Below, piece by piece: positions 23,032 to 51,802 of a DNA stretch of 64,000 nucleotides. The stretch is taken from assembly GCA_945900755.1 (NCBI GenBank), contig CAMDKS010000013.1, forward strand, positions 1 through 64,000, given 5' to 3'. Numbering within the stretch: position 1 is the first letter of the stretch; every line of letters begins with the position of its first letter. Source of the DNA: Bdellovibrio sp. ZAP7 (GTDB lineage Bacteria > Bdellovibrionota_B > Oligoflexia > Oligoflexales > RGVZ01). A model generated the notes under the pieces. That model saw only the letters and a program-made list of their open reading frames with translations. It was not told the origin of the DNA and ran no database searches. The translations under genes were made by a program, and so were the position numbers.

Positions 23032-23892
23032 CTATTTGGATGCCGCTACATTACGACCATTTCCCGAACGCTTGGACAAATTTTTGTGGTGGCGTGGCTT
23101 AACTTTGCTTGAAGCCAATGCGCCCTTATTTCGCGAGTGACCAACTTTAACCACCGATTTGTGATGAAGATAGAGCTCAGGATCAAGAGGTTTATTGTCG
23201 AAGTTTCGCAATTCAAAATGCAGGTGAGCTCCCCTTGCATTCCCCGAACGTCCGACTTTTGCAATTAAATCACCTTGGCGCACCTTACTGCCCACCCTTG
23301 CAATCAATTTACTGGCATGGGCATAAAGAGTCATAAATGCACCATGGTCTATGATAACCGTCAGGCCATATCCTCGTTGCCGCCCACTAGCAATCACCTC
23401 ACCATCACCTGCAGCGATGATGGGGGTTCCGACATTTGCAGCAAGGTCGATTCCCTTATGATTTTTACGCCCCCTCTTACCGAAGTGGCTCGAAATTCGG
23501 GATTCCACAGGATAAATTAAGGAAACTGGCTCTTTGGACTGAGGCCCAACAAGCAAACCTTTGTTAGGACGCTTTAGAAAATCTAAGTCTTCATCATCGA
23601 GATCCTCTTCTGGAGAAGATTCGGGTTCATGTGTCTCAGCAAGGAGCGGTTGCGAGTCTGGATTCCCAGCAATTTTTAGGACTTGACCTTCCTGAAGGCC
23701 TTGCGCCAATGTTGGTTGATTCAACTGTACGATGGACTCCCAGGTTACGCCATGTGCGTCGGCAATCGTCCTTAGGGTCTCATTTTTTTTCACGATAACG
23801 GTAACGGTATTTGAACCACTACGAAGGGATGCACAACTCACGCTCATAAAGAATAAGAAAACGGTGATCAAACCAATTTGGATACGACTCAT
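23032..23892 (-). CDS. nlpD: NlpD-like lipoprotein: LysM plus M23 (LytM) peptidase domain
   Basis: ATG 23892 is supported by AAGGAGAG upstream. The lipoprotein signal ends FFMSVSC (Cys20). A LysM peptidoglycan-binding domain follows (~30-75; TVIVKKNETLRTIADAHGVT), then an acidic linker, then the LytM fold (~150-250). The latter has HFGKRGRKNHKGIDLAA, HGAFMTLYAHASKL and GAHLHFELR carrying the zinc/catalytic histidines. It either hydrolyses cell-wall cross-links or activates amidases. The C-terminus is a basic tail (HHKNLSKRSGN). It follows surE by 49 bases, the same linkage as in E. coli surE-pcm-nlpD. Confidence 0.85.
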   Translation of the reverse strand: MSRIQIGLITVFLFFMSVSCASLRSGSNTVTVIVKKNETLRTIADAHGVTWESIVQLNQPTLAQGLQEGQVLKIAGNPDSQPLLAETHEPESSPEEDLDDEDLDFLKRPNKGLLVGPQSKEPVSLIYPVESRISSHFGKRGRKNHKGIDLAANVGTPIIAAGDGEVIASGRQRGYGLTVIIDHGAFMTLYAHASKLIARVGSKVRQGDLIAKVGRSGNARGAHLHFELRNFDNKPLDPELYLHHKSVVKVGHSRNKGALASSKVKPRHHKNLSKRSGNGRNVAASK

Positions 23893-23941
23893 TTTGCTCT
23901 CCTTTCTGCTTAGCTTGGTGTGAGAAATCCTTTTCCCACTG

Positions 23942-24724
23942 CTAAAAATGCTGATCAAAGGCCCCCGCCATTTTCGCTTTAAGCAGAGAGTTACTCTGCT
24001 CATCCAAGAAACTAGGTCGCAGCACCGATGCGGTCACAAATCCTTGATCAATCAAAACACAGTCCGAATCTGGAATATCATCGAACATCTCACCGCCGGC
24101 ACCAATCCAATAATAAGCCCGACCCCGAGGATCGGTGCCCTCTTGCATTCCTTCTTCATACACACGCCGCCCAAGGCTGGTTACGGCGATACCCTTTAAC
24201 TTCCCGAACGGAAGGTTTGGAACGTTGATGTTGAGCAACGAGTTTATCGGCACGGTATCCATAATATCTTGCCGCTCAACCAGCATCCGAACAACCTTTG
24301 CAGCCGCTTCATAGTGAATAGACTCCCTGGCTGAACCATACGAAGACACCGCTATCGAACGAATCCCATGGAGAGTTCCCTCCATCGCCGCCCCAACTGT
24401 TCCTGAGTAAATAGTATCTACACCTAGATTAGCACCTCTATTAATGCCACTCAATACCCAATTTGGCTTACGCCTCAACAACTTACGGATTGCCAACATA
24501 ACGCAATCGGCGGGAGTGCCCTCAACGGCATAGGTATTCGACGAAATTTGTTCCATTCTCAAAGGAGAATAAATAGTGATCGCATGGCTTGAGGCTGAGC
24601 GTTCAACGTGAGGCGCGACAATAACGACGTCACCCATATCCTTAAAAGCAGCAGCCAGAGCAAGCATCCCAGGGGCGTGAACTCCGTCGTCATTGGTTAT
24701 GAGAAACAATGGCTTTTGTGACAA
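23942..24724 (-). CDS. surE: 5'/3'-nucleotidase SurE
   Basis: The 260-residue survival protein SurE is a divalent-metal phosphatase acting on nucleoside monophosphates in the cytoplasm. Signatures are LITNDDGVHAPGM (metal-binding Asp-Asp near residues 12-13), VVIVAPHVERSASSHAIT, VEGTPADCVMLAI and the SGINRGANLGVDTIYSGTVGAAMEG block. The start is TTG 24724 with AAGGGGC upstream; no in-frame ATG fits. Upstream gene of the nlpD-like lipoprotein. Confidence 0.95.
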   Translation of the reverse strand: MSQKPLFLITNDDGVHAPGMLALAAAFKDMGDVVIVAPHVERSASSHAITIYSPLRMEQISSNTYAVEGTPADCVMLAIRKLLRRKPNWVLSGINRGANLGVDTIYSGTVGAAMEGTLHGIRSIAVSSYGSARESIHYEAAAKVVRMLVERQDIMDTVPINSLLNINVPNLPFGKLKGIAVTSLGRRVYEEGMQEGTDPRGRAYYWIGAGGEMFDDIPDSDCVLIDQGFVTASVLRPSFLDEQSNSLLKAKMAGAFDQHF

Positions 24725-24876: not shown

Positions 24877-26610
24877 TCAGGGGGCCTGCCTAGAAGCAAC
24901 GCACACCATGTAGCCGTCAATGTCACGACACGTTCGGTCGGGACGAGGCGACAACAGCTCCGCGGGTGCGCCCCTTCGAACAACGTATAGACTATCGGCT
25001 GCAAGCGGGCCGGCCAAAAATTCGTAATACTGTGACGTGCAGTAAAGCTTCGACACGAGTTCGTCATAACGCGCGAGCACGCCACTATTCTCTGTCATGT
25101 TATGGAGTGCGGCAAATTTGGCCAATTCTGGCCACTCATAGTGATGGTGAGCCCACATTGGTTCGCAGTAGCCGCCCTCTTGGTAGGGAGGAATAAGCTT
25201 AATATGTGAATATTTCGTCGCCTCATTCTCCCAAAATGGACTCGTCAATTTTTGACGTTCAAACTTTGGAAAACGCTTTGAACGCCCAGCCATCCAGGGA
25301 CCCAGATCGATCGCTTGCAAAAGTAAGGCTCCTGCAAAAATATACCTCGCTCTTTTTTTGTCATAGAAATTTGCGGTCGCAGCCATCGCTGTAAGAATTA
25401 AAAGGTAGTAACCCGGCCATACGAAGCGGCCAGCGACCCGCACCGACGTGGTGATTGCTTTTAACGGGAGCCAAAAAGCCTCTAAATCAACAATCCAAAA
25501 CGTGCCAATAAACAGTCGTTCGCCAAACGCATAAAACCACATCATGCCACATGCAACCAAAATTCCTCGGTAGCTTGGCTCTCGCATAAAGTCACGGAGT
25601 TTGCCACGCACGCTCGGCATCATCACAGAAATCAAGAATAACCAACCGCCCACCCCAGGCCACGCATAACCCTCATAGAGCCCTGCCTTTCGCCTAAAGG
25701 AAGGTAAAAAAGAACTGGTCGAAAAATTATTGAAAATAGCGAGTAAATCACTGCTAAACCAATGAAATCCATCCATTTTTGAGGCGCCACTTAACAATCC
25801 AAACAGACCCAAAACCACAAATAGCGAAAGCATCAAACCTGCGGTTGCCAACAGCAAACTGAACATTGATTTTCTTAACTCAGCTGGTCGTCTTTTTCGC
25901 TCGCCAAGAAAGCGCGACAACGGCATTGCCCAACATAGACCCGCCACCATTAAGGCAATATACGGCTGAATGAGTGTGGCCATCGCCAAAACTAGGACCG
26001 AACGCCACTTAGGCACTTTGCCCTCAGCGCCGTGCTTCGTCGATTCGAAGTACTCACCATTCAAGTCAATGCACCACAAAATGAGCCAATGCGACATTAA
26101 GGCAATGTGATTCCACCGATAGACTAATACGGGGCTAAGAGCCATCATGACCACGCCAATAATTAGGCAGAATCGATCCTTGATCCACCGCCGCAAGATC
26201 CTATAGGCAAACACACTTTGCAGTACGAAACATAGTAGCACCCACCACCCAAAATACTGGAAGTCTTCTGGCAACCAAGCACTGATGGCGCGAAATGAAA
26301 AAGCGGCGAGCGGAATAGAGTCCGTATAGGCTGTATAGGTATCGAGGGGAGCCATGAAATTTGGAATCGACCCAAGAGGAAACGACATCGGCGCATGGCG
26401 CAAAAAATACCAGCCTAAATAATAAAGAGTGATGTCGACCGTGGGCAAATAAGTGGTCGACGGCGGATGGAACAACCAATCCAAATTTGTCGGATCTAGG
26501 ATGTAAAGTGGCATCGTCAACGCAAAAGCTAGGAAGCCTAAAAAAACCGCTCCCACCATCATCATCCATGAATGACCTGAGGCCCCGGACCCACTGTTTT
26601 TCAACGTCAT
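24877..26610 (-). CDS. Polytopic membrane protein, DUF6311-like (glycosyltransferase-C-type fold possible)
   Basis: About 577 residues from ATG 26610 (GGTGGGGC just upstream; GTG 26646 is an alternative). There are about ten transmembrane segments, then a soluble C-terminal ~130 residues with several cysteines. The N-terminal HPPSTTYLPTVDITLYYLGW region and FPLGSIPNF resemble the bacterial DUF6311 family, whose members sit in surface-polysaccharide loci. Diverges from a glycosyltransferase/methyltransferase pair, so a lipid-linked sugar role is plausible. The enzymatic activity is unknown. Confidence 0.6.
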   Translation of the reverse strand: MTLKNSGSGASGHSWMMMVGAVFLGFLAFALTMPLYILDPTNLDWLFHPPSTTYLPTVDITLYYLGWYFLRHAPMSFPLGSIPNFMAPLDTYTAYTDSIPLAAFSFRAISAWLPEDFQYFGWWVLLCFVLQSVFAYRILRRWIKDRFCLIIGVVMMALSPVLVYRWNHIALMSHWLILWCIDLNGEYFESTKHGAEGKVPKWRSVLVLAMATLIQPYIALMVAGLCWAMPLSRFLGERKRRPAELRKSMFSLLLATAGLMLSLFVVLGLFGLLSGASKMDGFHWFSSDLLAIFNNFSTSSFLPSFRRKAGLYEGYAWPGVGGWLFLISVMMPSVRGKLRDFMREPSYRGILVACGMMWFYAFGERLFIGTFWIVDLEAFWLPLKAITTSVRVAGRFVWPGYYLLILTAMAATANFYDKKRARYIFAGALLLQAIDLGPWMAGRSKRFPKFERQKLTSPFWENEATKYSHIKLIPPYQEGGYCEPMWAHHHYEWPELAKFAALHNMTENSGVLARYDELVSKLYCTSQYYEFLAGPLAADSLYVVRRGAPAELLSPRPDRTCRDIDGYMVCVASRQAP

Positions 26611-26825
26611 TAGCCCCACCAAAAACAATAATGATTTATTGCGCACGTTTATACGACTATAAAAAAATGAGACTAGTTTATTAACTATACAAAATCAACT
26701 CCTCTCTACCTTTGTTGCCCTCTCAAAGATATCGACAAACACGAGTTAAAACACTATCCTCCCTTGGCCTGCGGGCAATGACTCTTATTTGAAATCGAGC
26801 GACTACTTGGCGAGGCCACTATACG

Positions 26826-27605
26826 ATGATGCAAGGTAAAAAAATTGTGGTGGTAATGCCTGCTTATAATGCAGAGAAGACTCTTCGGAAAACGGTTGCC
26901 GAAATAGATCGGACGATCGTCGATGAGGTCATTCTTGTTGATGATTGCAGCAAAGACAAAACGGTCATGATTGCCAAGGAACTCGGCCTGCATGTTGTCG
27001 TTCATGACAAAAATCGCGGTTACGGCGGCAATCAGAAATCCTGCTATGCGAAGGCTCTCAGTCTCGGAGCCGATATTGTGGTGATGGTCCATCCTGACTA
27101 TCAATACACCCCAAAATTAATTCCAGCGATGGCTGCTGTTTTGTTAAGTGATGAATTTGATATTGCTCTTGGATCACGAATTTTGGGTGGTGGGGCTTTG
27201 CGTGGCGGAATGCCTGTCTACAAATATATTGCAAATCGATTCCTAACTCTTGCCCAGAATCTACTTACAGGAATGAAACTCTCTGAATTTCACACCGGCT
27301 ACAGATCATTTACCCGAAAAGTATTGACGACTTTGCCGATCCACAACAACAGTGATGATTTTGTTTTTGATAATCAAATGCTTCTTCAGGCCCATTACGC
27401 GGGATTTTTCATCGCATAGATTACCTGCCCGACCAAATATTTTGATGACGCATCGTCCATCAATTTTGCTCGAAGTGTGAAATATGGACTTGGATGCCTC
27501 GGCGTGGCCGCACAATACTTTTTAGGCAAACGCGGAATGACCAATCCTAAAATATTTCACGGCATGACACTTGCCAGCACCACGAAAGCTAAGGAGTCTG
27601 TGTGA
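26826..27605 (+). pseudogene. Family 2 glycosyltransferase interrupted by an in-frame TAG
   Basis: The first 197 codons encode a GT-A dolichol-phosphate-mannose-type transferase: VVVMPAYNAEKTLRKTV, VDD near residue 39, NRGYGGNQKSC, MVHPDYQYTP and GSRILGGG. It stops at TAG 27417-27419. The same frame continues without a shift for 61 more codons with family-typical sequence (ITCPTKYFDDASSINFARSV, KYGLGCLGVAAQYFLGKRGM). It ends at TGA 27603-27605, overlapping the next start by 4 bases. Relatives usually have Glu at the stop position (IAEI.CPTKYF), so GAG to TAG is the simplest change. It may be inactive, truncated but active, read through, or a base-call error. Confidence 0.8.
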
Positions 27606-28465
27606 CTAGCAAACCAGAGCTGTACGACAGCAACGATTACTACAACGGCGACGGTCAGGCGAGTCGACTTGCGCCAGGTTTGAATGGATTTTTGTACTTT
27701 TTGGATTGGTTTAAGGCGTGGAATTTTGTCCGCGTTTCGGGACTACTCACCAAATCAAAAACATCAAGGGAGCGGCCCCTTCGGGTCATTGATATCGGCG
27801 CTGGTGACGGTAAATTTTTGTATTTCGTTAAACAATTTGGTTTCTTTCCCCAAGGCACCACAGCCTCCTCCATTTCTCAGCAAGCAGCAAAATCAAAGTA
27901 TGAAATTTCTTTACATTTGAGCAAAGAAATCCCGGACGAACTTCAAAAAGAAAAAATTGATGCCATCACCTATTGGCACGTGTTTGAGCACCTTGAAGAA
28001 CCCGATTCTCACGTTAAAATCTGGTCTAAAATCTTGGCCGACGACGGCGTGGTCATGATTGAAGTTCCCAATATTGACGGCTTCGGGTCGAAACTATGCT
28101 ATCCGACTTGGCTTGGCAGTGATGATGTCCATCACATTAATCACATGACGTCTAACGCCCTTGACGAGCTCCTAGGGAAGCATGGCCTAGCGGTCTATCG
28201 CAGGGAAGGCTTCTCCCTAAAATTTACCTACGTATACCTTTGGAGTGCACTGCTGGGCCGACTTTTTGGGGAGAAAGACTATTCGTTTGAAACGGTCTTT
28301 GGCGTCCTGAAAAATCCGGCAACAAGTCTTAAAAACAATCCTGCGATGACCATTAATTCGATACTTTCGATTGGTTACCTAGCACCTTTAATCATTTTAA
28401 TCGGAGCGATTGGAGTTCTCACCAACCGCGGAGAAATCATTAGACTATATGCTCGTCGAGCGTAG
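27602..28465 (+). CDS. Class I SAM-dependent methyltransferase with C-terminal membrane segment
   Basis: The 287-residue protein starts at GTG 27602, overlapping the glycosyltransferase frame's stop by 4 bases (GTGA). The Rossmann motif I is VIDIGAGDGKFL (residues ~60-71). Then come a Methyltransf_23-like core (YWHVFEHLEEPDSH, VMIEVPN) and a hydrophobic C-terminal helix (LAPLIILIGAIGVL) that likely ties it to the membrane. Such enzymes methylate surface glycans or lipid-linked sugars. It converges with gltG, with 8 bases between stops. Confidence 0.82.
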   Translation: MTSKPELYDSNDYYNGDGQASRLAPGLNGFLYFLDWFKAWNFVRVSGLLTKSKTSRERPLRVIDIGAGDGKFLYFVKQFGFFPQGTTASSISQQAAKSKYEISLHLSKEIPDELQKEKIDAITYWHVFEHLEEPDSHVKIWSKILADDGVVMIEVPNIDGFGSKLCYPTWLGSDDVHHINHMTSNALDELLGKHGLAVYRREGFSLKFTYVYLWSALLGRLFGEKDYSFETVFGVLKNPATSLKNNPAMTINSILSIGYLAPLIILIGAIGVLTNRGEIIRLYARRA

Positions 28466-28473
28466 AGATTCGA

Positions 28474-30717
28474 TTAGCCTGCAGGACTAAAGCTGAATGG
28501 ATAGCTGACTTCCACTGGCTGCCCACCGCGCGGACTTGGGAACGACCAACGCTTAACGACACCAGTTATACAGCCACGAGTAACGACATCCGACAAGGTA
28601 GCGGCCCCAATAGTAGCGACCGATACACGTCCTGAGAGGGCAACAGTAAAATTAACTTCGACTCTTCCTGCCGAGTTTGGAGCGCGCTGAATAAGTTGTT
28701 CGTAGCAGTGTCTAATTTCGTTAATGTGAGCATTAATAACGGCACGAATCTCTTGTTGAGTAAGTCCTGCTTCCACTGTCGGATCTCCGGGCGCAATTGA
28801 AACGTCTGCGCGTCCGTGACCGCCTCCGGCTCCTTTTCCGTTGCCATTATGTCCAAGGCCACTACCGCCGCCTAAGCCGCCCAATCCTCCTGAGCCGCCT
28901 GCACCACCACCCGCACCGCCAGAGCCTCCGTTACCGAAGTTATTGGCTGCACCGGCTGCGCCCGCCAAACCAAGAGATTGACCGCCGCCAGGACCACCCA
29001 TGCCGTATGTTTTACTTGCAGATCCAGAGCCACCGCCAGCACCACCAGCACTACTGGTAAAATTGGTGTGAATGGCTCCAGCTCCCGTTTTACTTGATAC
29101 CTTACCTGCGCCGAGCCCGAGCTTAGAAAGATTGACTCCGGAAGCTTTCGTATTGTTTACGCCCTCGACTCCCTGAACGCTTGTTGCTTGCTTTCCTTTA
29201 ATAGCTCCACCGGTTTTATTATTACCTCCACCTTTTGTGCCGGAGGCTCCAAGTGGTTTTGCCGATTTTTCGCCAGCAAACTTAAAGTCAGGTTTTACAG
29301 CACCAGTCGATGGCGTTCCCGCAGACGGCTTCGTTAAGGCTGACAAATTCACGGCCGGCTTCGCAACCGGTGTTGGTTTTACGACAGGGGTAGGCTTAGC
29401 AACCGGAGCTGCTGCTGCTTTTGCAACCGTGGGAACAGGTGAAGGCGTTACCATGGCTTTTTCCACGGGCTTTTCCACGGGCTTTTTTTGCTCGACCTTT
29501 TCGGGCTCCACAGGCTTCTTAGGCTCCACTGGCTTCGGCTTTGGTGGCGGTGGTGGCTTCGGCGTTTTTGGCGGCTCTGGTTTTTCCTCTACTTTAACAG
29601 GAGGTTTCTTTGGCTCGGGCTCTTTTTTTACCGGTTCAGGCTTTTTTTGCTCCAAAGGAACTTCCGCATAGGCGAAAATTTCGTCTTCTTCCTTCTTTTC
29701 GACAGGTGGCGTCATCCAAACAACTGGAAGAATTAAGGCGAACAAAAGCAAACAAGCTAGAGCAATAGAAACAATAACAGGATCCCTAGGACCAGCCCTA
29801 TTCAAATCGATTTCAGGCGGACGTACAAACAATAAAAAATAGCGCACGCTACCGAATTTTATATGTGCGATATCACGTCTCTCGAGTGAGACCCTGCCCT
29901 CGCCATCAATTTTTTCAATTTTTCCACCACGTCTAATCCGCGTGTCCATTCCTTTTAGAAGCTTTAACTTATAGCCACCCGTTGAGCTAAACTTTGCGAG
30001 CGTATGCTTTAAAAAATGCTGTTCTCCAGCTGCGATAAAATTCGCAATTGGCGTAACACCGATGGTGACGTGATCAAAGTCTTTAAATTGTGGGTGAAAA
30101 AGATCTACATCCAGTACAGAATCACCCCAGTATGCGACCACCTCTAGGATGTCGCCCGTTGGTCGAGCATCGCGTGGAGAGAATAAAATATGTTTGGGAA
30201 TTCGGCGCTCTGAATTTTGATCAAGGGTTTCCTTGCGCACAGTAGTTTTGTGTGCACCTTGCGCTAAACTCTCTGTCGAACCTGCTGGAACTGATGCCTT
30301 TGAAACCTTACCCTGGTCAGCAAGTTGCGCTGTCGAAAGGTGAGGAACAGGACGGAGATCTGGTGGAGTTTGAATACTTGAGCCCACAATACCAGGATGC
30401 GGAGGCAATGGAATATTTACGATTTGGTGAACAAACTCTAGAATAACACTACCAATTGCTATTTTATCACCAGATCTTAGTGGACATTCAACGTCAATGA
30501 TGACCCCATTAACCTTGACTCCTGTCTCACTGCCAACATCTGTCACGATCCATTGATCATTACCAATGTCTTCAATCAATGCATGAATCGGATCAACACC
30601 TGCTGCCCGTATTACAATATGGTTCGACGGCAAAGTACCAATCATCATCCGTGACTGATCCATGGGAACAGTTCTTGGAAGTTGACCTGAAATCTGGAAT
30701 CGTAACTCAAATGCCAT
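28474..30717 (-). CDS. gltG: GltG-like motor coupling protein: FHA, one TM, Pro-rich and Gly-rich spans, AgmX/PglI C-terminal domain
   Basis: 747 residues in this order: an FHA domain (~1-100; RMMIGTLPSNHIVI, HALIEDI...ETGVKVNGV); a second soluble part; a single TM near 312-330 (VSIALACLLLFALILPVVW); a TonB-like Pro/Lys/Glu stretch (~340-440); a Gly/Ser-rich span (~500-640). Last comes the AgmX/PglI-type energy-transducer domain (~645-747; EIRAVINAHINEIRHCYEQ). This is the architecture of Myxococcus GltG/PglI, an inner-membrane component that reaches across the periplasm from the Agl motor. It is separated from the other cluster genes by 213 bases with 13-bp repeats, so it may have its own promoter. 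The FHA domain implies phospho-threonine signalling. Confidence 0.85.
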   Translation of the reverse strand: MAFELRFQISGQLPRTVPMDQSRMMIGTLPSNHIVIRAAGVDPIHALIEDIGNDQWIVTDVGSETGVKVNGVIIDVECPLRSGDKIAIGSVILEFVHQIVNIPLPPHPGIVGSSIQTPPDLRPVPHLSTAQLADQGKVSKASVPAGSTESLAQGAHKTTVRKETLDQNSERRIPKHILFSPRDARPTGDILEVVAYWGDSVLDVDLFHPQFKDFDHVTIGVTPIANFIAAGEQHFLKHTLAKFSSTGGYKLKLLKGMDTRIRRGGKIEKIDGEGRVSLERRDIAHIKFGSVRYFLLFVRPPEIDLNRAGPRDPVIVSIALACLLLFALILPVVWMTPPVEKKEEDEIFAYAEVPLEQKKPEPVKKEPEPKKPPVKVEEKPEPPKTPKPPPPPKPKPVEPKKPVEPEKVEQKKPVEKPVEKAMVTPSPVPTVAKAAAAPVAKPTPVVKPTPVAKPAVNLSALTKPSAGTPSTGAVKPDFKFAGEKSAKPLGASGTKGGGNNKTGGAIKGKQATSVQGVEGVNNTKASGVNLSKLGLGAGKVSSKTGAGAIHTNFTSSAGGAGGGSGSASKTYGMGGPGGGQSLGLAGAAGAANNFGNGGSGGAGGGAGGSGGLGGLGGGSGLGHNGNGKGAGGGHGRADVSIAPGDPTVEAGLTQQEIRAVINAHINEIRHCYEQLIQRAPNSAGRVEVNFTVALSGRVSVATIGAATLSDVVTRGCITGVVKRWSFPSPRGGQPVEVSYPFSFSPAG

Positions 30718-30761
30718 AAAAAAATTCTACCTCAATAGGACTATTGGATCGTGTAACAAAC

Positions 30762-30804
30762 CACTGAAACCAATCACTGAAACCAATCACTGAAACCAAT
30801 CACT
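30762..30804. repeat. 13-bp tandem repeat, 3.3 copies, upstream of gltG
   Basis: Unit cactgaaaccaat (30762-30774, 30775-30787, 30788-30800, then cact). It lies 45-87 bases before the gltG start. The core ACTG..CCAAT is shared with the repeat at 39552-39603 upstream of aglR. Confidence 0.85.
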
Positions 30805-30930
30805 TAACAAAATGTCTTCGCCAAAACTTAATTCATGATTTTGATTCTATTATCCCATAAATTTCCAAACTTACCAAACCTCTTCAAAAAACTTATTACA
30901 TAGGCCACAGGCCGATGCCTTATTTTAGGA

Positions 30931-32013
30931 TCACGGCTTGGCTGGGGGCTCTCCTGCCGAACTCTTCCCAGACGGGGCTGCCTTGGCTTTGTCGGCCGCA
31001 TCACGATTGGCAGCCTCCTTAAGGGACTTCTCTTGCTTGGATCTATCCTCATCCCTGTCGATCGCCACTAGAATTTTGCCTGCTTTTTCATCCCAAACCA
31101 GAGCTCCGCCAGGAATGACCAATGCCTTATTCAGCATTTCTCGGGCCTTTGCATAATCCTTTTTGCCCTGCCAAGCATTAATGCCGCAATTGATTAGAGT
31201 TTGCTTATGCTTGGGGTGGGCGCCCAAGATTTTTTCACAAGAGGCGTCCGCCTTTTCTGAATCACCTAGTAGGCGATTAACTGAGATTAGGCCAGCCTCG
31301 GCGTACCAATCCCCTTCGACACTGGCAAGCGACTTTTGCGCTGTCTCTACATCTCCGCCTTGAAGGGCCAGAAAACCCATATTTAGTAGTGCAGGCTTAT
31401 AATCACTGTTTATGGCGATGGCCTCTTTAAATAACCCCATCGCCTCGGGAATACGCTCCATACGCACGGCCATAACACCCCTCGCATTTAATATGGCGGC
31501 GCGAATGCTCGCATTTTTCGACTTGTATAATTTATCAAACCAAAACTCCGCAAAAGCCAATCTGCCAGTTTGAACACCGGTGAGTGCAAGCTCAAGTTGA
31601 ACGGACTCGGGAAGCTCTTTGTCTACGCCCGCCAACATCACACTGTCTGCAATTCGTTTAGCTACGGCCAATGTTTCCTCTACGGATCGACCAGCAAGCC
31701 TATTTGCGGACAAAATAGCAACAAGCATATTGAGGTCATTCGACTTGCCATTGCTGTCCTGAGCTACAAAATCAGCTGCTTTTGTACGGTCAATAGCCCT
31801 TGAAGTGAGCGGGTTGTTACTGATGCTCGTCACCAAAAATCGGCGATCGCCATCTAATTTAGCACCGCTTTCTTTTTCGGCTGCAGCGGGAGCCGCACTT
31901 GTGCCGCCTCCATCTACGGGATCTTGTGCTGCATTTTTCGACTTATTGCCGGCACAGCTATTCATGGCCACAACAACAAAAATGATCCTCATAGGGTTCA
32001 CTAATTTTTTCAT
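30931..32013 (-). CDS. TPR lipoprotein, GltE-like
   Basis: The 360-residue protein has an N-terminal hydrophobic signal ending VVVAMNSC (Cys20; the lipobox is atypical at -3). Tetratricopeptide-like helical hairpins span ~140-320 (ALLNMGFLALQGGDVETAQK, AGLISVNRLLGDSEKADASC, TLINCGINAWQGKKDYAKAR). The tail is charged and Lys/Ala-rich. Start and upstream stop share one base (TAATG), so it is coupled to the large TPR protein. Its size, lipidation and position match the outer-membrane TPR lipoprotein GltE/AglT of the gliding machinery; assignment is by context. Confidence 0.65.
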   Translation of the reverse strand: MKKLVNPMRIIFVVVAMNSCAGNKSKNAAQDPVDGGGTSAAPAAAEKESGAKLDGDRRFLVTSISNNPLTSRAIDRTKAADFVAQDSNGKSNDLNMLVAILSANRLAGRSVEETLAVAKRIADSVMLAGVDKELPESVQLELALTGVQTGRLAFAEFWFDKLYKSKNASIRAAILNARGVMAVRMERIPEAMGLFKEAIAINSDYKPALLNMGFLALQGGDVETAQKSLASVEGDWYAEAGLISVNRLLGDSEKADASCEKILGAHPKHKQTLINCGINAWQGKKDYAKAREMLNKALVIPGGALVWDEKAGKILVAIDRDEDRSKQEKSLKEAANRDAADKAKAAPSGKSSAGEPPAKP

Positions 32014-35000
32014 TATTCACCCCCTTTTTTATTTTGGACGGCTTGCACGAGGGACTCCGCCACGTCACTGCCAATGAAATCTGGCATTAGTGCGACGTCA
32101 TCAAAACTTAAATTCTTCCCTGATGTCCGCTCTAATCCGCTCACAGCCTTTGCCGCCCATTCATTGTAGACATTGAACGCTTTAATAGAGTCGACCGCAA
32201 ATTTAAATAATTTCTTTGCCTCGTTGCGATTTATCACGACTTTTGGAGCAAGCTGCGCTTTTACATCCTCAATTTTGGCGCCGGTGATTCCTGGAGGATT
32301 CTCAAAATCTTTAGCCAATAGTTCGCGTGCGACACCCATTTGATATAGTGCGGCCACCCCCCAAAAAGCATCTTTCGTCCCCAAGACTCCTTGGAAGGAC
32401 TTGTCGACAACAGCGACTGAAGACTCTTTCCGGTCTATCGTTTTCAACAAGTTATCTACCGTACCTCCTGTGAACTTCATCGCCGCAAATTTTGGCATTA
32501 CTTGCTTGGCCTCTGCAAAGGCAAGTTCAGCCACATAGCGCCCCGCCTCTGGATCTAGCTTTCCGCCACCAGCTCTATTTGCTGCTAGTATCTCTTTTCC
32601 CGCCTGCTGTGCTGCGGGCCCAGTGCCGTTTGCTGCATTAAAAATTCGGTGAAATGCGATAATTCGCTCACTCGGGGAAAGTTTAAACTTCAAGTACTCT
32701 TTAATCGTCTGCTGCATTTTCGCGTAATTTTTGGAAAACTCCGCCTCTCGAACAATCCGATCTACAAGTGGCTGGGCTCCTGCGGGATCTGATTTAGCCA
32801 GAATCATGCATGTAGAGAGGGCTTTATCATCGCCGATTGCAACCTTCAATTCACAGGCACGACCGATCGAGGGTAAGGCACTCTTATCATTTGGATATTT
32901 TGAAGCAAAAGCTAAGTAATAAGATGCTGCCGTGGCAAAATCCATTCGTTTCTCTGACAGTTTTGCTAACTGCTTTAGTGACTCAGAAGCCCCCTCAGAT
33001 TTTGGATAATTCTTTAGAACGGCAGCATAAGCTGCAATTCCTGCAACGACCATTCCGGCACCGATGTAGTCGACGCCAGCGTTATACATTAACTTACCTG
33101 ATTCAGGTGAATTTGGATGTTTCATCGCTAACTCCTCCTGAGCCTTTGCACGCTTGCCGCCATCACTAATTTTCTTAATCTCATCAACCTCAGCGCCACG
33201 CTTCAGATCACGCAACTTGTCGCCCAATTTACCTTTTTGGTAGGCGGGAATTTTCAATAAAGCGTTTGAAATTTGAACCAGAGCTTTTGTTTCGCCCGAG
33301 TAAAGGGGTATTAAAGCATCCACGGCCGCAGGTCCGATTTTCTCATTGGGGTACTTTTGGGACAAATTAAACAGTAGTTTTTTTGACTTCTCTTTATCGG
33401 CACTGTGGTAGTAAATATCCGAGGCGTATATATCGCACGATTTAGCTGCCTTTAAGTCTTCAGGATAATATTTTTGGTATTCACTACAAGCTTGAATATA
33501 GCTCCCCGCACGGGGAGACAAAGCACGGGCAGGCTTACTAAAATTAGGGACAATCGTTAAAAGAACTTTATACTCAGGCTCGAAGTCCAATCCGTAGCTG
33601 TCAAGCATGTAAGATGCCGCCTCTTTATGAAGAGGCACGACCTTATTGCCTGGCTGCTTAATTTTTATAGCTTTTTCTTTACCTAATGCAACTACCGCCA
33701 AGTAAGCTTTGCCAGCTTCACGATATTTTTTTTCCTGAAACAAAACGTCACCCACATTGAATTTAACTTCGGGCATTTCTTTGGAATTTGGATAGTGCTT
33801 TAAAAACAAGTCATACCCACGCAGGGCCTCATTATAGGTGCGAGTGTCGTCGTTACTCTGCCCTCTCTTATGAAACGTTTTAGCGTAAAATATAATTGTA
33901 TCTTTTATTCGCAATTGAGTGCTGTCAACAGAGCTTTGATCTACTTTGTTTGCTGCATACCATGGACTAGCCGGACCATAGGCTGCGGGGTATGCGGAAA
34001 GCTCCTTCCACATTTCAGGAAGTTTATTAAGATCGTAGTAAAGCCCAATGATTTCTTTTTGAGTATCCGGTGTATCCAAAGCAGTTGGATAGATTTGTTG
34101 ATATCTCTTATAGACTCGAATAGCCTCTGGAAATTTTCCCGCATCAACCAATGCCGAGCCCAATTGATTGAGAAACTTTCCTATGAACTTCTCGCCGCCA
34201 TGTTGCCGATAGTAATTGATGGCCACCTCGGTGTTTTTGATTTCAACCCAAGCATTGACCATGTCTTTTAGAGCACTATCCCTAAGAGTGTCACTTCCTT
34301 GAACCTTTTTAGACATCGCTTGAGCGACAGTCTTTTTCCAGTAATCAAGGGCTTCAGGATAATTTTGGAGATTATAGGAACACCATCCGAGCTTCCATAA
34401 AGACAGCCCGTAACCTCTGCTGCCCTTAAAAGATAAAGCCTTTTTGTAATTGTTACTCGCATTTCGAAAGTTTTTCTTATCGAAAAAGAATTCTCCTAAC
34501 TGAAAATAGGCATCTCCAGACTTGTCGCTATTTGGATATTTTCGAATAAGGTCACTATAGACAGCAGCCCCTTCTTTTTCCTTACCCAAATACTGAAGTG
34601 CCAAACCTTGATTAAACATTAAAGCATCGGCACCAGACGTGTTTGGAAATTGTTTCAATACTTCAGCCGCTTTCGACGCTACCTTTGCCCATGCTGCCCT
34701 TGATTTTGTAGAATTTACTTGCGGGGCTTTTCCCTTGCTGCCTGCTTGCTCCCAGTTGGCAAAGGCTTTGTCATACGCTCGAAATTCCGCATTGGACTCA
34801 TAGCCCGCAAGCTCCACGTAACGATCCAAAAGTCGTTTAAGAAAGTTGACTCGTTGACTTGATTTTTTTGGAAGAGTACGCTCACTGCGCTCATAAAACG
34901 CAATCGTTTTTTCTAATTCACCAGAAAGCTTACCCTCGGTCGCGGCGATAAATGCCTCGCCACGCGATTCGGTTGGGCCAGAGACTTTTTCTACATTGCC

Positions 35001-35144
35001 CGTTTCTCTTTTCTTGGTTTGGAGACTGTCGAGATCCACATCCTTGTGCGCTTTTTCGCGGTCATCTGCGCTCGCCGCAAACGATAGACTAGCACTTAAG
35101 GCAAATAGTACCAGTACTCTTAAAAATCGGCTTATAAATAGCAT
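32013..35144 (-). CDS. Large periplasmic TPR protein, GltD-like
   Basis: About 1,043 residues from ATG 35144 (GAGG 8 bases upstream). A signal peptide (LFALSASLSFAASA) sends it to the periplasm. Almost the whole length is TPR/HEAT-like helical repeats (DALMFNQGLALQYLGKEKEG, DAYFQLGEFFFDKKNFRNAS, VKFNVGDVLFQEKKYREAGK). It is encoded between the 516-residue TPR protein and the TPR lipoprotein. Size and place fit GltD/AgmU, the periplasmic scaffold of the Glt complex. Confidence 0.68.
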   Translation of the reverse strand: MLFISRFLRVLVLFALSASLSFAASADDREKAHKDVDLDSLQTKKRETGNVEKVSGPTESRGEAFIAATEGKLSGELEKTIAFYERSERTLPKKSSQRVNFLKRLLDRYVELAGYESNAEFRAYDKAFANWEQAGSKGKAPQVNSTKSRAAWAKVASKAAEVLKQFPNTSGADALMFNQGLALQYLGKEKEGAAVYSDLIRKYPNSDKSGDAYFQLGEFFFDKKNFRNASNNYKKALSFKGSRGYGLSLWKLGWCSYNLQNYPEALDYWKKTVAQAMSKKVQGSDTLRDSALKDMVNAWVEIKNTEVAINYYRQHGGEKFIGKFLNQLGSALVDAGKFPEAIRVYKRYQQIYPTALDTPDTQKEIIGLYYDLNKLPEMWKELSAYPAAYGPASPWYAANKVDQSSVDSTQLRIKDTIIFYAKTFHKRGQSNDDTRTYNEALRGYDLFLKHYPNSKEMPEVKFNVGDVLFQEKKYREAGKAYLAVVALGKEKAIKIKQPGNKVVPLHKEAASYMLDSYGLDFEPEYKVLLTIVPNFSKPARALSPRAGSYIQACSEYQKYYPEDLKAAKSCDIYASDIYYHSADKEKSKKLLFNLSQKYPNEKIGPAAVDALIPLYSGETKALVQISNALLKIPAYQKGKLGDKLRDLKRGAEVDEIKKISDGGKRAKAQEELAMKHPNSPESGKLMYNAGVDYIGAGMVVAGIAAYAAVLKNYPKSEGASESLKQLAKLSEKRMDFATAASYYLAFASKYPNDKSALPSIGRACELKVAIGDDKALSTCMILAKSDPAGAQPLVDRIVREAEFSKNYAKMQQTIKEYLKFKLSPSERIIAFHRIFNAANGTGPAAQQAGKEILAANRAGGGKLDPEAGRYVAELAFAEAKQVMPKFAAMKFTGGTVDNLLKTIDRKESSVAVVDKSFQGVLGTKDAFWGVAALYQMGVARELLAKDFENPPGITGAKIEDVKAQLAPKVVINRNEAKKLFKFAVDSIKAFNVYNEWAAKAVSGLERTSGKNLSFDDVALMPDFIGSDVAESLVQAVQNKKGGE

Positions 35145-35209
35145 TTCAATCCCTCGGTGCTGAATTTGCACTCCACAATGATCCCTCGAGCAAACGCATT
35201 GAAACTACT

Positions 35210-36760
35210 TTACTTCTTGCCATTAGACGGGCCTGCTGAAGCATTGCAGCGGTCGTCCAAGTTATAGACATAGTAGCCGAGCTCATCTTCCCAATACTCA
35301 CCTTGGAACGGCCAGTATTCGATCTGCTGGTCAACCTTTAGCGGCTGTAAACCCCCGATAAAAACTTTACGGTCATTCGCTTGAGTAACGTTGAGGCTTC
35401 TCCTAATCGTATCCACCTGCCCCTCAAATCTTTCAGCTTGAATTCCTTTAGTCTGTTGAACTAGGTCACGCATATAAGCCACAGACGAAGCGGCCTGCTC
35501 AAATAACTGCACACCAGAGTCTACTTTAGCGACCGCTTTCTTTTTCGCTAAAAAACCTTTTAAATCATCAATCAGCCCGGTAGAGACCCATTTTCCACCC
35601 ATTCCGGACAACCGCGCAATTTCTGCATCTGAGTAACGAACGGCCCGATAAGCCTCTTTATAGGCATCAGAACGGCTGAGGGAGTCCAATATAGCCCAAG
35701 CACTACGATAACTGGAGAGCGAGCCGTTTCGGTAGTCGTAAACTAGCTTAAATAGCTCTGATTTTTTGGATTTGTATTCGGTCAGCACTGCTGAAATGTC
35801 TTTGAATACAGGCTTGTTCTTGTCTCGAAAACTTTCCAAACTAGACTGCACTTTGTCAAATCTGCAAAGCCTTAGATACGTGATCGCTTCGAGGAGATAG
35901 GACTCTGGGAAAAAACGATTTTCGAAAAATGGGGAGTGAAGGGTATGGATATTACCTAATACGTTATTATGCTTGGCCATCATAAAAAATGCCCAGGCGG
36001 ACTCGAATATGGCTTCGAGCCAGTTATCAGATTCTCTTGGGATTTGCGCGTAGTATTTCAAAGACTCCGCAAAATTCTTTGTTTCGTAATGAACTCGCGC
36101 AATATTCAAAGCACTTTGTTCACGGACCCAAGCATCAGCGCCCGCCGCTTCACGAGTCGACTCAAAGTAACTAATGGCACGACTATGCGCCCCAGCTCGA
36201 TTTGCAATGACGCCCAAGTGAAACTGAGCTTTACTATAATATGAGCTAGCGGCAGGCACTCGCTTGAACATGTCCGAAGATTTTTCATATTTTTCCTTTA
36301 TGAAATTTTCTTCGCCCAAATAGTAGAAATAGAACCCACGGGCCGCAGCAGGAATAGATTCCGGCGCAAGATTTTCGCCTTTAACTAGCTGCGAAATGTG
36401 CGATTTCCCCAAGGCGACCGTGTTGTTGATCTGCCCCAATTCTTCGAGGCTCCTGCGGAAATATGGATTTACCGCCGTCGGCCCCCGCCTGACAATTTGC
36501 GAAAAATATTTAGAAGACGAGTAGTAAAAACCCAAGGATTGAAGACTTTTTGCCAAGCCCCATTCTGAAAACACCTTTTCCTGTGCAGACCTAGGAGACG
36601 AATAGGACTGAAAATACTCTGCGGCGGCACCTGCAAAGTCTCGGCCTGCGGTTAATTTCTGACCTGCTTCATAACCAGCAAAGCTATTCGTGGATAGCAT
36701 AGAAATGCTAATCCCCGCGGCCAAAATCCATGCCGACCTTGAACTGGTCAAGCCCCTCAT
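35210..36760 (-). CDS. Periplasmic TPR-type protein, GltC-like
   Basis: The 516-residue protein has a signal peptide (WILAAGISISMLSTNSFAG). Solenoid helices follow to ~400 (DFAGAAAEYFQSYSSPRSAQ, HLGVIANRAGAHSRAISYFE), then a short C-terminal part ending in a Trp/Tyr-rich acidic motif (EYWPFQGEYWEDELGYYVYN). Its ATG overlaps the stop of the barrel gene by 4 bases. By position between the barrel and the large TPR protein it matches GltC; assignment is contextual. Confidence 0.65.
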   Translation of the reverse strand: MRGLTSSRSAWILAAGISISMLSTNSFAGYEAGQKLTAGRDFAGAAAEYFQSYSSPRSAQEKVFSEWGLAKSLQSLGFYYSSSKYFSQIVRRGPTAVNPYFRRSLEELGQINNTVALGKSHISQLVKGENLAPESIPAAARGFYFYYLGEENFIKEKYEKSSDMFKRVPAASSYYSKAQFHLGVIANRAGAHSRAISYFESTREAAGADAWVREQSALNIARVHYETKNFAESLKYYAQIPRESDNWLEAIFESAWAFFMMAKHNNVLGNIHTLHSPFFENRFFPESYLLEAITYLRLCRFDKVQSSLESFRDKNKPVFKDISAVLTEYKSKKSELFKLVYDYRNGSLSSYRSAWAILDSLSRSDAYKEAYRAVRYSDAEIARLSGMGGKWVSTGLIDDLKGFLAKKKAVAKVDSGVQLFEQAASSVAYMRDLVQQTKGIQAERFEGQVDTIRRSLNVTQANDRKVFIGGLQPLKVDQQIEYWPFQGEYWEDELGYYVYNLDDRCNASAGPSNGKK

Positions 36761-37524
36761 AGAAAGTACCCCGCACCAAGCTGCATGGTTATGTTTGTTT
36801 GAGTGCCTGAACTTGTATCTGCCGTTAGAGGATCACAAGCACCGTCACCCTTATTATAGCTAAAGAAATGACTGCGAATGTCCCAACGCAAACTAACATT
36901 CTTGTCCAAGAACACCCTTTGACCCAGCCCAAGAAAACCGGTTGGATAGGACGCTGTTTTAGCCGCCGGAGGAGCAGTAACCGTCACATCAGAGGGCACG
37001 TCAGAAGGTTTTGGGCAATGATCATATAGATACTCCACCCCCGTCATTCCCCCACCAGCTGCCACAAACAAATCTAAATAAATTAGCGCTCCAGACGATA
37101 ATTGATACTTGCCGTAGATTGGCGTGTAAAGCAACCCGCCCTCAGCGAAGTACTTAGTACGAAGAATTTCGGTTTTAATTTTAAAATTTGAATCAAGGTT
37201 TTTTTTGTCATCCTTATCTATGGTCAATCCGAAAGCTCCTGCACCCTCAATGGCGATCGACTCACTAAAATGAAAGTCAAGAATCCCCGTCGCCAAATAG
37301 GTATAAATAAACGATTGGTTCATGACCACAGACATTTGAGCCGAGGTCTCCAAGCGTCCCGATTTTGAAAAAAATCTTGGGCGAATGACTCGCACTTCAG
37401 AGGATGAAAATTGCTCTGCGGAAACCATAGTAGGGAATGCACCACTGCAGAATATTACAGCAAAAATCGCCAAGCATGCTTGACTACGCCGCCAAATAGA
37501 ATTTTTCCCCGTCACAAGGCCCAT
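36757..37524 (-). CDS. Outer-membrane beta-barrel, GltA/GltB-like
   Basis: The 255-residue protein has a signal peptide (AIFAVIFCSGAFPTMVSA). The rest is alternating strands typical of an 8-10-stranded barrel (FIYTYLATGILDFHFSESI, VSLRWDIRSHFFSYNKG) and it ends AGYFL. A Pro/Ala-rich loop with one cysteine (~190-205) may be extracellular. Its length matches the ~250-residue Glt barrels that anchor the motor in the outer membrane. It lies 4 bases after the TolR-like gene. Confidence 0.68.
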   Translation of the reverse strand: MGLVTGKNSIWRRSQACLAIFAVIFCSGAFPTMVSAEQFSSSEVRVIRPRFFSKSGRLETSAQMSVVMNQSFIYTYLATGILDFHFSESIAIEGAGAFGLTIDKDDKKNLDSNFKIKTEILRTKYFAEGGLLYTPIYGKYQLSSGALIYLDLFVAAGGGMTGVEYLYDHCPKPSDVPSDVTVTAPPAAKTASYPTGFLGLGQRVFLDKNVSLRWDIRSHFFSYNKGDGACDPLTADTSSGTQTNITMQLGAGYFL

Positions 37525-37528
37525 AGCG

Positions 37529-38032
37529 TTACAATTCCTTTTGAACCATCAGCTTAAATTGCACGAAATCTGCTTGCTGAGCTGAAAGCATAATTCTTTT
37601 CATAAGTTTAAATCTATGTCCCTTATCCATCTCCATGGTTAAGGCGCCAGTAGAACCCATCGCATTTGGATCATTTGACTTAATGTTTTTCGCAAGACGC
37701 TTGTTGGCCTCACCCAACTTCTCCAACTCAGTAAAGACCGGTTGAATGGCGCCCTGTGTTCGGTCTTTTTCCGGAACATCACCGGCCACTATGTCCGCAA
37801 TTTTTTTGCCATTGATCACGATTTCTGTTTTTGTGACAACCACTGTTGGGACTTCGTCGAGAGCCACGATAGTCGTAGATTCAGGCAGCTCAATCCCCGC
37901 ATCTACGTTATGAGTTACAGGATCACTTGAAAAACTCATTAAAAGAAATGTAATAAGAATTGAAAAGATATCAAGCATCGGGTTCAAGTTTAGAAACAAG
38001 GTATCTTTGCTACCCCCACCTGCACTAGCCAT
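37529..38032 (-). CDS. aglS: TolR/ExbD-like proton-channel subunit (AglS-like)
   Basis: The 167-residue protein has one N-terminal TM (~15-35; LNLNPMLDIFSILITFLLMS) carrying Asp21, the protonatable residue of ExbD/TolR/MotB-type stators, and a periplasmic C-terminus. It is the second of two TolR paralogs after a TolQ homologue, matching the aglR-aglQ-aglS order. The symbol rests on gene order, and Q and S could be exchanged. Confidence 0.8.
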   Translation of the reverse strand: MASAGGGSKDTLFLNLNPMLDIFSILITFLLMSFSSDPVTHNVDAGIELPESTTIVALDEVPTVVVTKTEIVINGKKIADIVAGDVPEKDRTQGAIQPVFTELEKLGEANKRLAKNIKSNDPNAMGSTGALTMEMDKGHRFKLMKRIMLSAQQADFVQFKLMVQKEL

Positions 38033-38092
38033 CGAATGCTCCCCATACCTAGTAATTAAAACGATTAAGAACTGTCTTACTCAAATCCAAAT

Positions 38093-38647
38093 TCACTTGA
38101 GCATGACGCTACCCATCACTATTTTTTGATAGAGAAAAGTCTTGGCATCCAACTCTGCTTTTGCCAGATTCTTGGCGTCCTTAACAGGTGCAAAAATTGG
38201 GTCTCCTTCCACTCGCAAAATCATAGCATCTAGCACCAAAGAAAGAGACTCCCAGGTAACCTCATCGTCGCTGTATACGGTCGCTTTATCTATCGTACTA
38301 TTTTGCTTACGTACATCGGCGAGCTTCTGATGAAACGTCTTAAGGCCCTCTTTAGTATTCTTAAATGGGAATTTCTGTAGCTGTTCAGGCGCCTTCGTAA
38401 AGGAAGTTTGAATCTCCACATTTTCCTTTGAGACGTCAACGCTCACTTGAAAGGCCCTAGTATCCTTTTGATCCTCGGGCGGCGCATTCGACAAAAACGG
38501 AATCTGAACTTCCAAGATACCAACAGATAAAAATACAGCACTAAACAATAGAAATGTATTAAGCATGGAAAAGATATCGATGAACGGCATGATGTTCAAT
38601 TCGATATCTTTATACTCTCCTGGTTTTCTTTTCTTTCTCCTGGACAT
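38093..38647 (-). CDS. aglQ: TolR/ExbD-like proton-channel subunit (AglQ-like)
   Basis: The 184-residue protein has a basic N-terminus (MSRRKKRKPGEYKD). One TM follows (~18-42; ELNIMPFIDIFSMLNTFLLF) with Asp24 in the stator position, then a periplasmic domain. In Myxococcus the AglR/Q/S channel uses proton flow to drive the gliding machinery. It lies 57 bases after aglR and 60 before the second TolR-like gene. Confidence 0.82.
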   Translation of the reverse strand: MSRRKKRKPGEYKDIELNIMPFIDIFSMLNTFLLFSAVFLSVGILEVQIPFLSNAPPEDQKDTRAFQVSVDVSKENVEIQTSFTKAPEQLQKFPFKNTKEGLKTFHQKLADVRKQNSTIDKATVYSDDEVTWESLSLVLDAMILRVEGDPIFAPVKDAKNLAKAELDAKTFLYQKIVMGSVMLK

Positions 38648-38704
38648 CCTTGTCCTCCAATTATTTTTCTAAGTATCGTTCAAATCAGAAAAGCATTGAA
38701 TTGA

Positions 38705-39370
38705 TTACTCGCTTCGATCTGAACCGCCGCGGTGAATCTTCATCTTACGGTTGTAGAGCATATGAAGGAGGCGAGCTGAATTCGCATTGATGTCATCGAC
38801 GATCGATGTCTGCTTGACCATGAGGATACCGAAGGTAAGCAGAATGACGAGAGCTGTTCCGAGACCATACGAGGTCGCGACGAGTGCTTCCGCGATACCC
38901 TCCGCAAGCAACGTAGACTTCTGGGCACCAGTAGCATTCGCTGCAGCAGCAAAAGACTTCATCAGTCCAAACAGTGTGCCGAGCAAACCACAAAGAGTGG
39001 CAACGTTGGCGGTTGTACCAAGAAAGCCAAGCCATTTAGTGACCTTAGGCACAGCTTCGAGAGTCGCGTATTCCATAGCCAGCTCGATTTCCTCAACAGA
39101 ATCGTTGGCACGCATGAGACCTTGAACCAAAACTTCAGGGAGCAGCTTTGGCTTAGCGCGACGACAAAGGCGAATGGCATTTTCTATAGAATTATTCATG
39201 ACCATTTTTTGAATATTACTCATGAAAACAGAGCTATTTGCTAAGTCATACTGTACCCAGTACCGAATGACACGCTCACAGATTAGGCCCAGTGAAATAA
39301 TAGCGGTAATTGTAATGGCCAACATGACCTGCCATCCGCCCTTATGCACTAATTCAACAATTTTATCCAT
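38705..39370 (-). CDS. aglR: TolQ/ExbB/MotA-like motor protein (AglR-like)
   Basis: The 221-residue protein has three TMs (~12-33, 113-137, 158-185). The MotA_ExbB signature is TTANVATLCGLLGTLFGLMK followed by EALVATSYGLGTALVILLTF. It is the first gene of the minus-strand run aglR-aglQ-aglS-barrel-TPR-TPR-TPR lipoprotein. GAGGGAG precedes the ATG and a sigma70-like promoter lies upstream. General TolQ or ExbB function is the alternative, but the glt-type neighbours favour the gliding motor. Confidence 0.85.
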   Translation of the reverse strand: MDKIVELVHKGGWQVMLAITITAIISLGLICERVIRYWVQYDLANSSVFMSNIQKMVMNNSIENAIRLCRRAKPKLLPEVLVQGLMRANDSVEEIELAMEYATLEAVPKVTKWLGFLGTTANVATLCGLLGTLFGLMKSFAAAANATGAQKSTLLAEGIAEALVATSYGLGTALVILLTFGILMVKQTSIVDDINANSARLLHMLYNRKMKIHRGGSDRSE

Positions 39371-39423: not shown

Positions 39424-39453
39424 ATTTTACGAAATAGAGACCATCACTGTCAA
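39424..39453 (-). promoter_or_regulatory. Sigma70-like promoter of the aglR operon
   Basis: On the minus strand a perfect TTGACA (39453-39448), an 18-base spacer and TAAAAT (39429-39424), 54 bases before the aglR ATG. The 13-bp repeat array lies ~100 bases further upstream. Confidence 0.6.
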
Positions 39454-51787: not shown

Positions 51788-51802
51788 TCGAAGTAAACAA
51801 AT

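Follow-up and report, generated by a model that had tools for sequence, protein, structure and literature searches.

What kind of machine is encoded by a compact cluster of eight genes whose products resemble parts of the gliding motor of Myxococcus xanthus? The question is raised by positions 28,474–39,370 of a 64,000-nucleotide stretch of DNA (positions 1–64,000 of contig CAMDKS010000013.1, assembly GCA_945900755.1; hereafter, the window). The window comes from contig C13 of a 2.9-Mb draft assembly, about 90% complete, a metagenome-assembled genome (MAG) of an uncultured member of the Oligoflexales, class Oligoflexia. A preliminary description, made from the sequence, regarded the cluster as a single-locus gliding motor of the Agl–Glt type and possibly as an ancestral machine. 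The attribution to Agl–Glt machines is upheld by the position of AglR in the Agl clade and by the match of GltC to the Glt family. The locus very probably encodes the Oligoflexia version of the Agl–Glt core complex, a putative proton-powered force transducer spanning the cell envelope, and the eight-gene set is conserved and probably an active envelope motor. Gliding as such is another matter and is discussed below.

Composition of the locus

All eight adjacent genes listed in the preliminary description are present as open reading frames (ORFs) on the minus strand, and Pfam and NCBIfam profile searches run on the eight proteins back each reading. In the order of transcription, the genes encode an AglR-like protein, two ExbD-type subunits, an outer-membrane barrel, three tetratricopeptide repeat (TPR) proteins and GltG:

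38705–39370, minus strand: aglR-like gene, MotA/TolQ/ExbB-family proton channel subunit, 221 aa (Pfam PF01618, 1.2e-22)
38093–38647, minus strand: first ExbD/TolR-type subunit, AglQ by order and profile, 184 aa (PF02472, 1.1e-8)
37529–38032, minus strand: second ExbD/TolR-type subunit, AglS by order and profile, 167 aa (PF02472, 1.8e-9)
36757–37524, minus strand: outer-membrane 8-stranded β-barrel, GltA-like, 255 aa (TIGR04565, OMP_myx_plus, 2.2e-25)
35210–36760, minus strand: gltC homologue, periplasmic TPR protein with the C-terminal motif EYWPFxGEYWEDELGYY, 516 aa (NF033756, 2.8e-56, and alignments)
32013–35171, minus strand: gltD homologue, large periplasmic TPR protein, 1052 aa (TPR domains, position and profile homology)
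30931–32013, minus strand: gltE homologue, TPR protein, probable lipoprotein by its signal sequence, 360 aa (TPR, a weak NF033758 match, 7e-4, and position)
28474–30717, minus strand: gltG homologue, 747 aa (PF00498, FHA, 4.5e-11; NF033760, 1.4e-36; NF033768, AgmX/PglI tail, 4.8e-27)

The first four genes are separated by 57, 60 and 4 bases; the barrel gene and gltC then overlap by 4 bases, gltC and gltD lie 38 bases apart, gltD and gltE share 1 base, and 213 bases precede gltG. This last interval is the sole large gap in the set.

Stator

The AglR-like protein possesses Thr-bearing pore helices, and its pore Thr positions are conserved in the alignment. The profile of the first ExbD-type subunit (AglQ-like) matches the second gene of R–Q–S sets elsewhere. 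Asp24 of this subunit aligns with the catalytic, proton-carrying Asp of TolR/ExbD, as does Asp21 of the second ExbD-type subunit with the proton-carrying Asp; both residues are kept in 21 of 21 aligned rows. The predicted stator is of the five-to-two type, consisting of AglR and two ExbD-type subunits, and retains its proton-path residues. The motor is predicted to be active because the proton-carrying Asp is kept in both ExbD-type subunits and the Thr pore helices are kept in AglR.

Phylogenetic analysis of 58 proteins separates the Agl side from the TolQ/ExbB-type proteins with a support of 100/100. The Agl side includes rows from Oligoflexia, Bdellovibrionales and Myxococcota as well as deltaproteobacterial ones, and the AglR proteins of Oligoflexia form a single clade (100/99). 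A quick AglR tree with more rows, including E. coli ExbB, also separates Agl from TolQ/ExbB (support 99). The phylogeny proposed in the preliminary description as a check thus groups AglR with Agl proteins and not with canonical Tol or Exb stators.

Periplasmic proteins, GltG and the barrel

The GltC homologue is modelled as a set of helical repeats (predicted local distance difference test, pLDDT, 82) and matches the Glt family specifically, rather than the TPR proteins of another system. The GltD homologue is related by profile to the proteins that occupy the GltD position in Bdellovibrionales and Myxococcota; a search of NCBIfam returned no match of this protein to a GltD model. GltG has a cytoplasmic FHA domain (residues 26–89), one membrane helix, a long, flexible periplasmic linker rich in Pro and Gly, and an AgmX/TonB-like tail (residues 653–744). 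A search of solved structures matched only FHA and TolQ/ExbB relatives and no Glt part. Since the scores of GltC (191 bits) and GltG (126 bits) are under the NCBIfam equivalog cut-offs of 450 and 650 bits, respectively, the two proteins are graded as homologues and are not called orthologues.

The AlphaFold2 model of the barrel has eight strands (pLDDT 85). According to Foldseek, the closest solved structures are OprF/OmpA barrels, with the OprF barrel as the best PDB match (6e-5). Compared with Bdellovibrionales loci that carry two barrels, the profile of the window barrel scores 73–109 bits against the GltC-adjacent barrel and 21–67 bits against the other. Because the profile favours the GltC-adjacent barrel, the window barrel is classed as GltA-like, by position and score.

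Comparison with known systems

A seven-protein 'core complex' (AglR, AglQ, AglS, GltC, GltD, GltE and GltG) was described by Luciano et al. in 2011, who also reported a contact between AglR and GltG; by their account, its genes form one cluster in Fibrobacter and Geobacter as well as in a betaproteobacterium and several gammaproteobacteria (PMC3169522). The window locus contains the same seven parts in one cluster, differing by the addition of the OMP_myx_plus barrel next to GltC; an additional gene noted by Luciano et al. in other core clusters might correspond to this barrel. According to published work, periplasmic GltC is bound by the GltA and GltB barrels (PMC4488436). Besides homologues of the seven core proteins, the window locus shares a GltA-like barrel with the M. 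xanthus Agl–Glt system, but the genes of the latter lie in three separate clusters (G1, G2 and M1), and GltB, GltF, GltH, GltI, GltJ and GltK are not encoded at the window locus.

Contiguity, noted in the preliminary description, is not novel. In addition to the one-cluster core complexes known previously, the clusters of Bdellovibrionales (Bd0828–0838 of B. bacteriovorus, named as the likely Bdellovibrio gliding set in PMC3169522, and loci L150, L152 and L153) likewise contain a contiguous stator, barrels, GltC, GltD, GltE and GltG. The order differs, being barrel–barrel–C–D–E–G–R–Q–S with two barrels in Bdellovibrionales and R–Q–S–barrel–C–D–E–G with one barrel in Oligoflexia, and the two groups form separate AglR and GltC clades. 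In two genomes reached from L152 and L178, a further cluster starting with AglR–Q–S (L203 in G059, L210 in G064; GltD, GltG, barrel) was seen besides the main Glt set. Plasmid sequences yielded no other core cluster. The compact locus is a further, class-wide example of a known core complex and not a new type of machine.

The locus is well conserved among relatives. All eight genes are present in identical order in 18 of 20 related loci; of the other two, one retains the order but has a split gltG and one is broken by a contig end, and the unbroken Oligoflexia loci found in a scan of named genomes have the same eight-gene order. Sequence identity across relatives ranges within 37–95% for AglR and 26–77% for GltD; a conserved order combined with such divergence is far beyond chance. 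One strong copy of AglR is found per genome across the order, with the exception of genome G028, and AglR is missing from a Silvanigrella-like genus. The GltC scan of named genomes matched MAGs of Oligoflexales and Silvanigrellales first (some of them labelled Oligoflexus or Pseudobacteriovorax), with more distant matches in Bdellovibrionales, Bacteriovorax and Myxococcota. The Agl–Glt core complex is thereby extended, with a fixed gene order in Oligoflexales and Silvanigrellales, to a class for which no prior report was found in the open-access literature.

In the GltC tree, locus 1 of Oligoflexia (the window type), locus 2 (described below), Bdellovibrionales and most Myxococcota form separate clades; the tree is unrooted and the branching order is unsettled. 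Because the clades are separate and unrooted, the ancestral status suggested in the preliminary description is neither supported nor excluded by the sequences.

A second Glt-like set

The 'single-locus' designation is accurate as regards the contiguity of the eight genes but does not extend to the genome, where another contig (C28, L089:4660–12726) carries a second Glt-like set. It comprises a barrel, a GltC-like protein (1.3e-35), a GltD-like protein, a GltE-like protein (2.8e-11), a CglF/GltF-like protein (7.4e-8) and a further small protein; neither a stator nor GltG was found at this locus. Sets of this type are also conserved in relatives. Among 58 genomes of the class, 34 contain both loci, 15 only locus 1, none only locus 2 and nine neither (Fisher p = 1e-4 for co-occurrence, although independence is poor, as a single genus accounts for eight of the nine that lack locus 1).

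A third contig (C1, L107:6731–10325) encodes an ExbB-like protein of 300 aa, two small membrane proteins and a 543-aa protein with an AgmX tail, beside an FHA/HD-GYP protein. This locus is a probable further motor with a force transducer. It is a system separate from Glt, since it is also present in Glt-less members of the class. The C1 locus was considered as the motor of the C28-type set and rejected, since the two are not strictly linked: no full-length C1-type protein accompanies the second set in genome G011, and C1-type proteins occur in the Silvanigrella-like genus, which carries no Glt set.

Gliding-related proteins and regulators

The preliminary description noted neither GltJ nor polarity regulators. 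As to GltJ, this holds for the entire assembly, in which good matches are found only to the AgmX tails of other proteins. Among regulators, the genome-wide search was for MglA, which was not detected in this assembly even with the protein of a congener as the query. With a Bdellovibrionales MglA protein as the query, 46 of the 54 class genomes searched, including those of the Glt-less genus, yielded MglA-like GTPases. With the assembly being about 90% complete, a gap is as likely a cause of the missing MglA as loss. An apparent class-wide absence of MglA, obtained with the Pfam Arf model (PF00025) at a strict threshold, was discarded; this model scores Bdellovibrionales MglA at only 5e-10 to 2e-7. 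The MglA-like GTPase of the congener (L231:1432–2082), located beside a dnaX-like gene, seems to lack the usual PGQ motif (reading TLPISS), and its GTPase cycle may differ. Of the M. xanthus Group A parts (GltA, GltB, GltF, GltH, GltI, GltJ and GltK), one GltA-like barrel is encoded at the window locus and a CglF/GltF-like protein on another contig; GltB, GltH, GltI and GltK were not seen at the locus, the only place where their presence was judged.

Function and alternative explanations

Proton flow would turn or cycle the AglR–Q–S stator, the movement of which would move GltG; GltG would then pull the TPR scaffold of GltC, GltD and GltE tied to the barrel, and a cargo at the outer surface would thereby be pushed or carried. 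A basal transport role has been proposed for the core complex and shown for Agl–Nfs. The cargo is most likely a surface polymer or an adhesin, and the motor would not necessarily serve the gliding of whole cells.

Several points weigh against the preferred reading, that of a core complex working as a force transducer. Position is the main basis for naming GltD and GltE, and the family scores are under the equivalog cut-offs; no polymer-synthesis gene is kept beside the locus in a survey of conserved neighbours at 21 loci, and context thus points to no cargo; and a search of the open-access literature found no experiment on this system and no report of Glt systems in Oligoflexia. Some of the evidence could instead be read as a duplicated Tol–Pal/Exb system with YbgF/CpoB-like TPR partners, acting in envelope stability or uptake: the best NCBIfam matches of AglR are TolQ/ExbB, and GltD exceeds the cut-off of the YbgF TPR model (94.8 vs 90.1 bits). 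However, AglR lies outside TolQ/ExbB at 100/100, a separate TolQ/TolR-like pair is encoded elsewhere in the genome, the two ExbD-type subunits of the locus differ from each other, TolB and Pal are not encoded there, and GltC and GltG match gliding families. This explanation is highly improbable. A true gliding motor, in which the locus would be the sole or main engine of surface gliding under the control of an MglA-like GTPase, is a less remote alternative, given that each core part of the M. xanthus motor has a homologue here, that most of the class has MglA-like GTPases and that Bdellovibrio, which has expanded core complexes, is able to glide (PMC3169522). Against this stand the absence of GltJ from the assembly, the four Glt proteins unseen at the locus, the failure to find MglA in this assembly and the Silvanigrella-like genus that keeps MglA without Glt, which denies a strict linkage. 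The same literature search found no gliding report for Oligoflexia, and Luciano et al., who found the core complex in bacteria not known to glide, judged it unlikely to drive motility alone (PMC3169522). A dedicated gliding engine is thus unlikely, and the term 'gliding motor' is supported as homology only. The function of a standalone core has been a question since 2011, and an operon present in a single copy makes a knock-out direct.

Another possibility, compatible with the force-transducer reading, is that the locus supplies its motor and GltG both to its own transducer and to the C28 set. The Agl motor of M. xanthus serves two transducers: it leaves Glt to drive Nfs, a set of Glt paralogues that lacks a stator of its own (PMC3858216). 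The C28 set is stator-less in the same way, whereas the window locus itself has a stator; Nfs, however, keeps its own GltG paralogue (NfsG), and the C28 set does not. Sharing is favoured by the lack of both stator and GltG in the C28 set, by the distribution of the second set, which occurs in 34 of the 49 class genomes that have the first locus and in none of the 9 that lack it, and by the occurrence of the second set in G011 without the C1 AgmX-tail motor. On the other hand, eight of those nine genomes belong to one genus, which leaves the co-occurrence with little weight as independent evidence; the second set could also draw on the C1 motor or some other energy source; and the genomes are incomplete drafts. 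By analogy with Agl, Glt and Nfs, motor sharing in Oligoflexia is conceivable, though somewhat short of likely. The broader proposal, that across the class one Agl motor with GltG serves two anciently diverged outer transducers, one linked and the other unlinked and devoid of stator and GltG, is rather doubtful. If true, motor sharing would be an old property of such machines and not a novelty of Myxococcus sporulation. The stator-less second set is the most interesting lead, allowing motor sharing to be tested outside Myxococcus.

Promoters and neighbouring genes

The following features were recorded around the eight-gene set:

39424–39453, minus strand: candidate sigma-70-type promoter upstream of aglR (TTGACA-18-TAAAAT, 11/12; consensus match only)
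30849–30877, minus strand: candidate extended -10 promoter in the 213-base gap before gltG (consensus match only)
23942–24724, minus strand: SurE (PF01975, 3.3e-61), a conserved neighbour in 12 of 21 loci
23032–24003, minus strand: LysM and M23 peptidase protein, NlpD-like (PF01551, 2.7e-30; PF01476, 8.4e-9), a neighbour family in 15 loci

Consensus promoter sites are no commoner across the region than in shuffled sequence. In many relatives, gltG is directly followed by SurE and the LysM/M23 peptidase; in the window genome, three genes intervene. These encode a DUF6311 membrane protein, a glycosyltransferase and a methyltransferase (24877–28465), none of which occurs there in the relatives examined, and the block is a lineage-specific insertion. 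A link between the Agl–Glt locus and sugar-polymer genes was dropped, as relatives lack the glycosyltransferase-like genes found next to gltG. The family 2 glycosyltransferase ORF (26826–27601, plus strand) has an in-frame stop at 27417–27419, after which the apparent remainder of the protein continues in the same frame; it is a broken gene or a sequence error. Elsewhere in the window (50696–52810, minus strand), a 363-aa protein, the tail of which faintly matches the AgmX type (1.4e-4), is encoded beside a 335-aa putative lipoprotein with no Pfam match, possibly another force-transducer pair.

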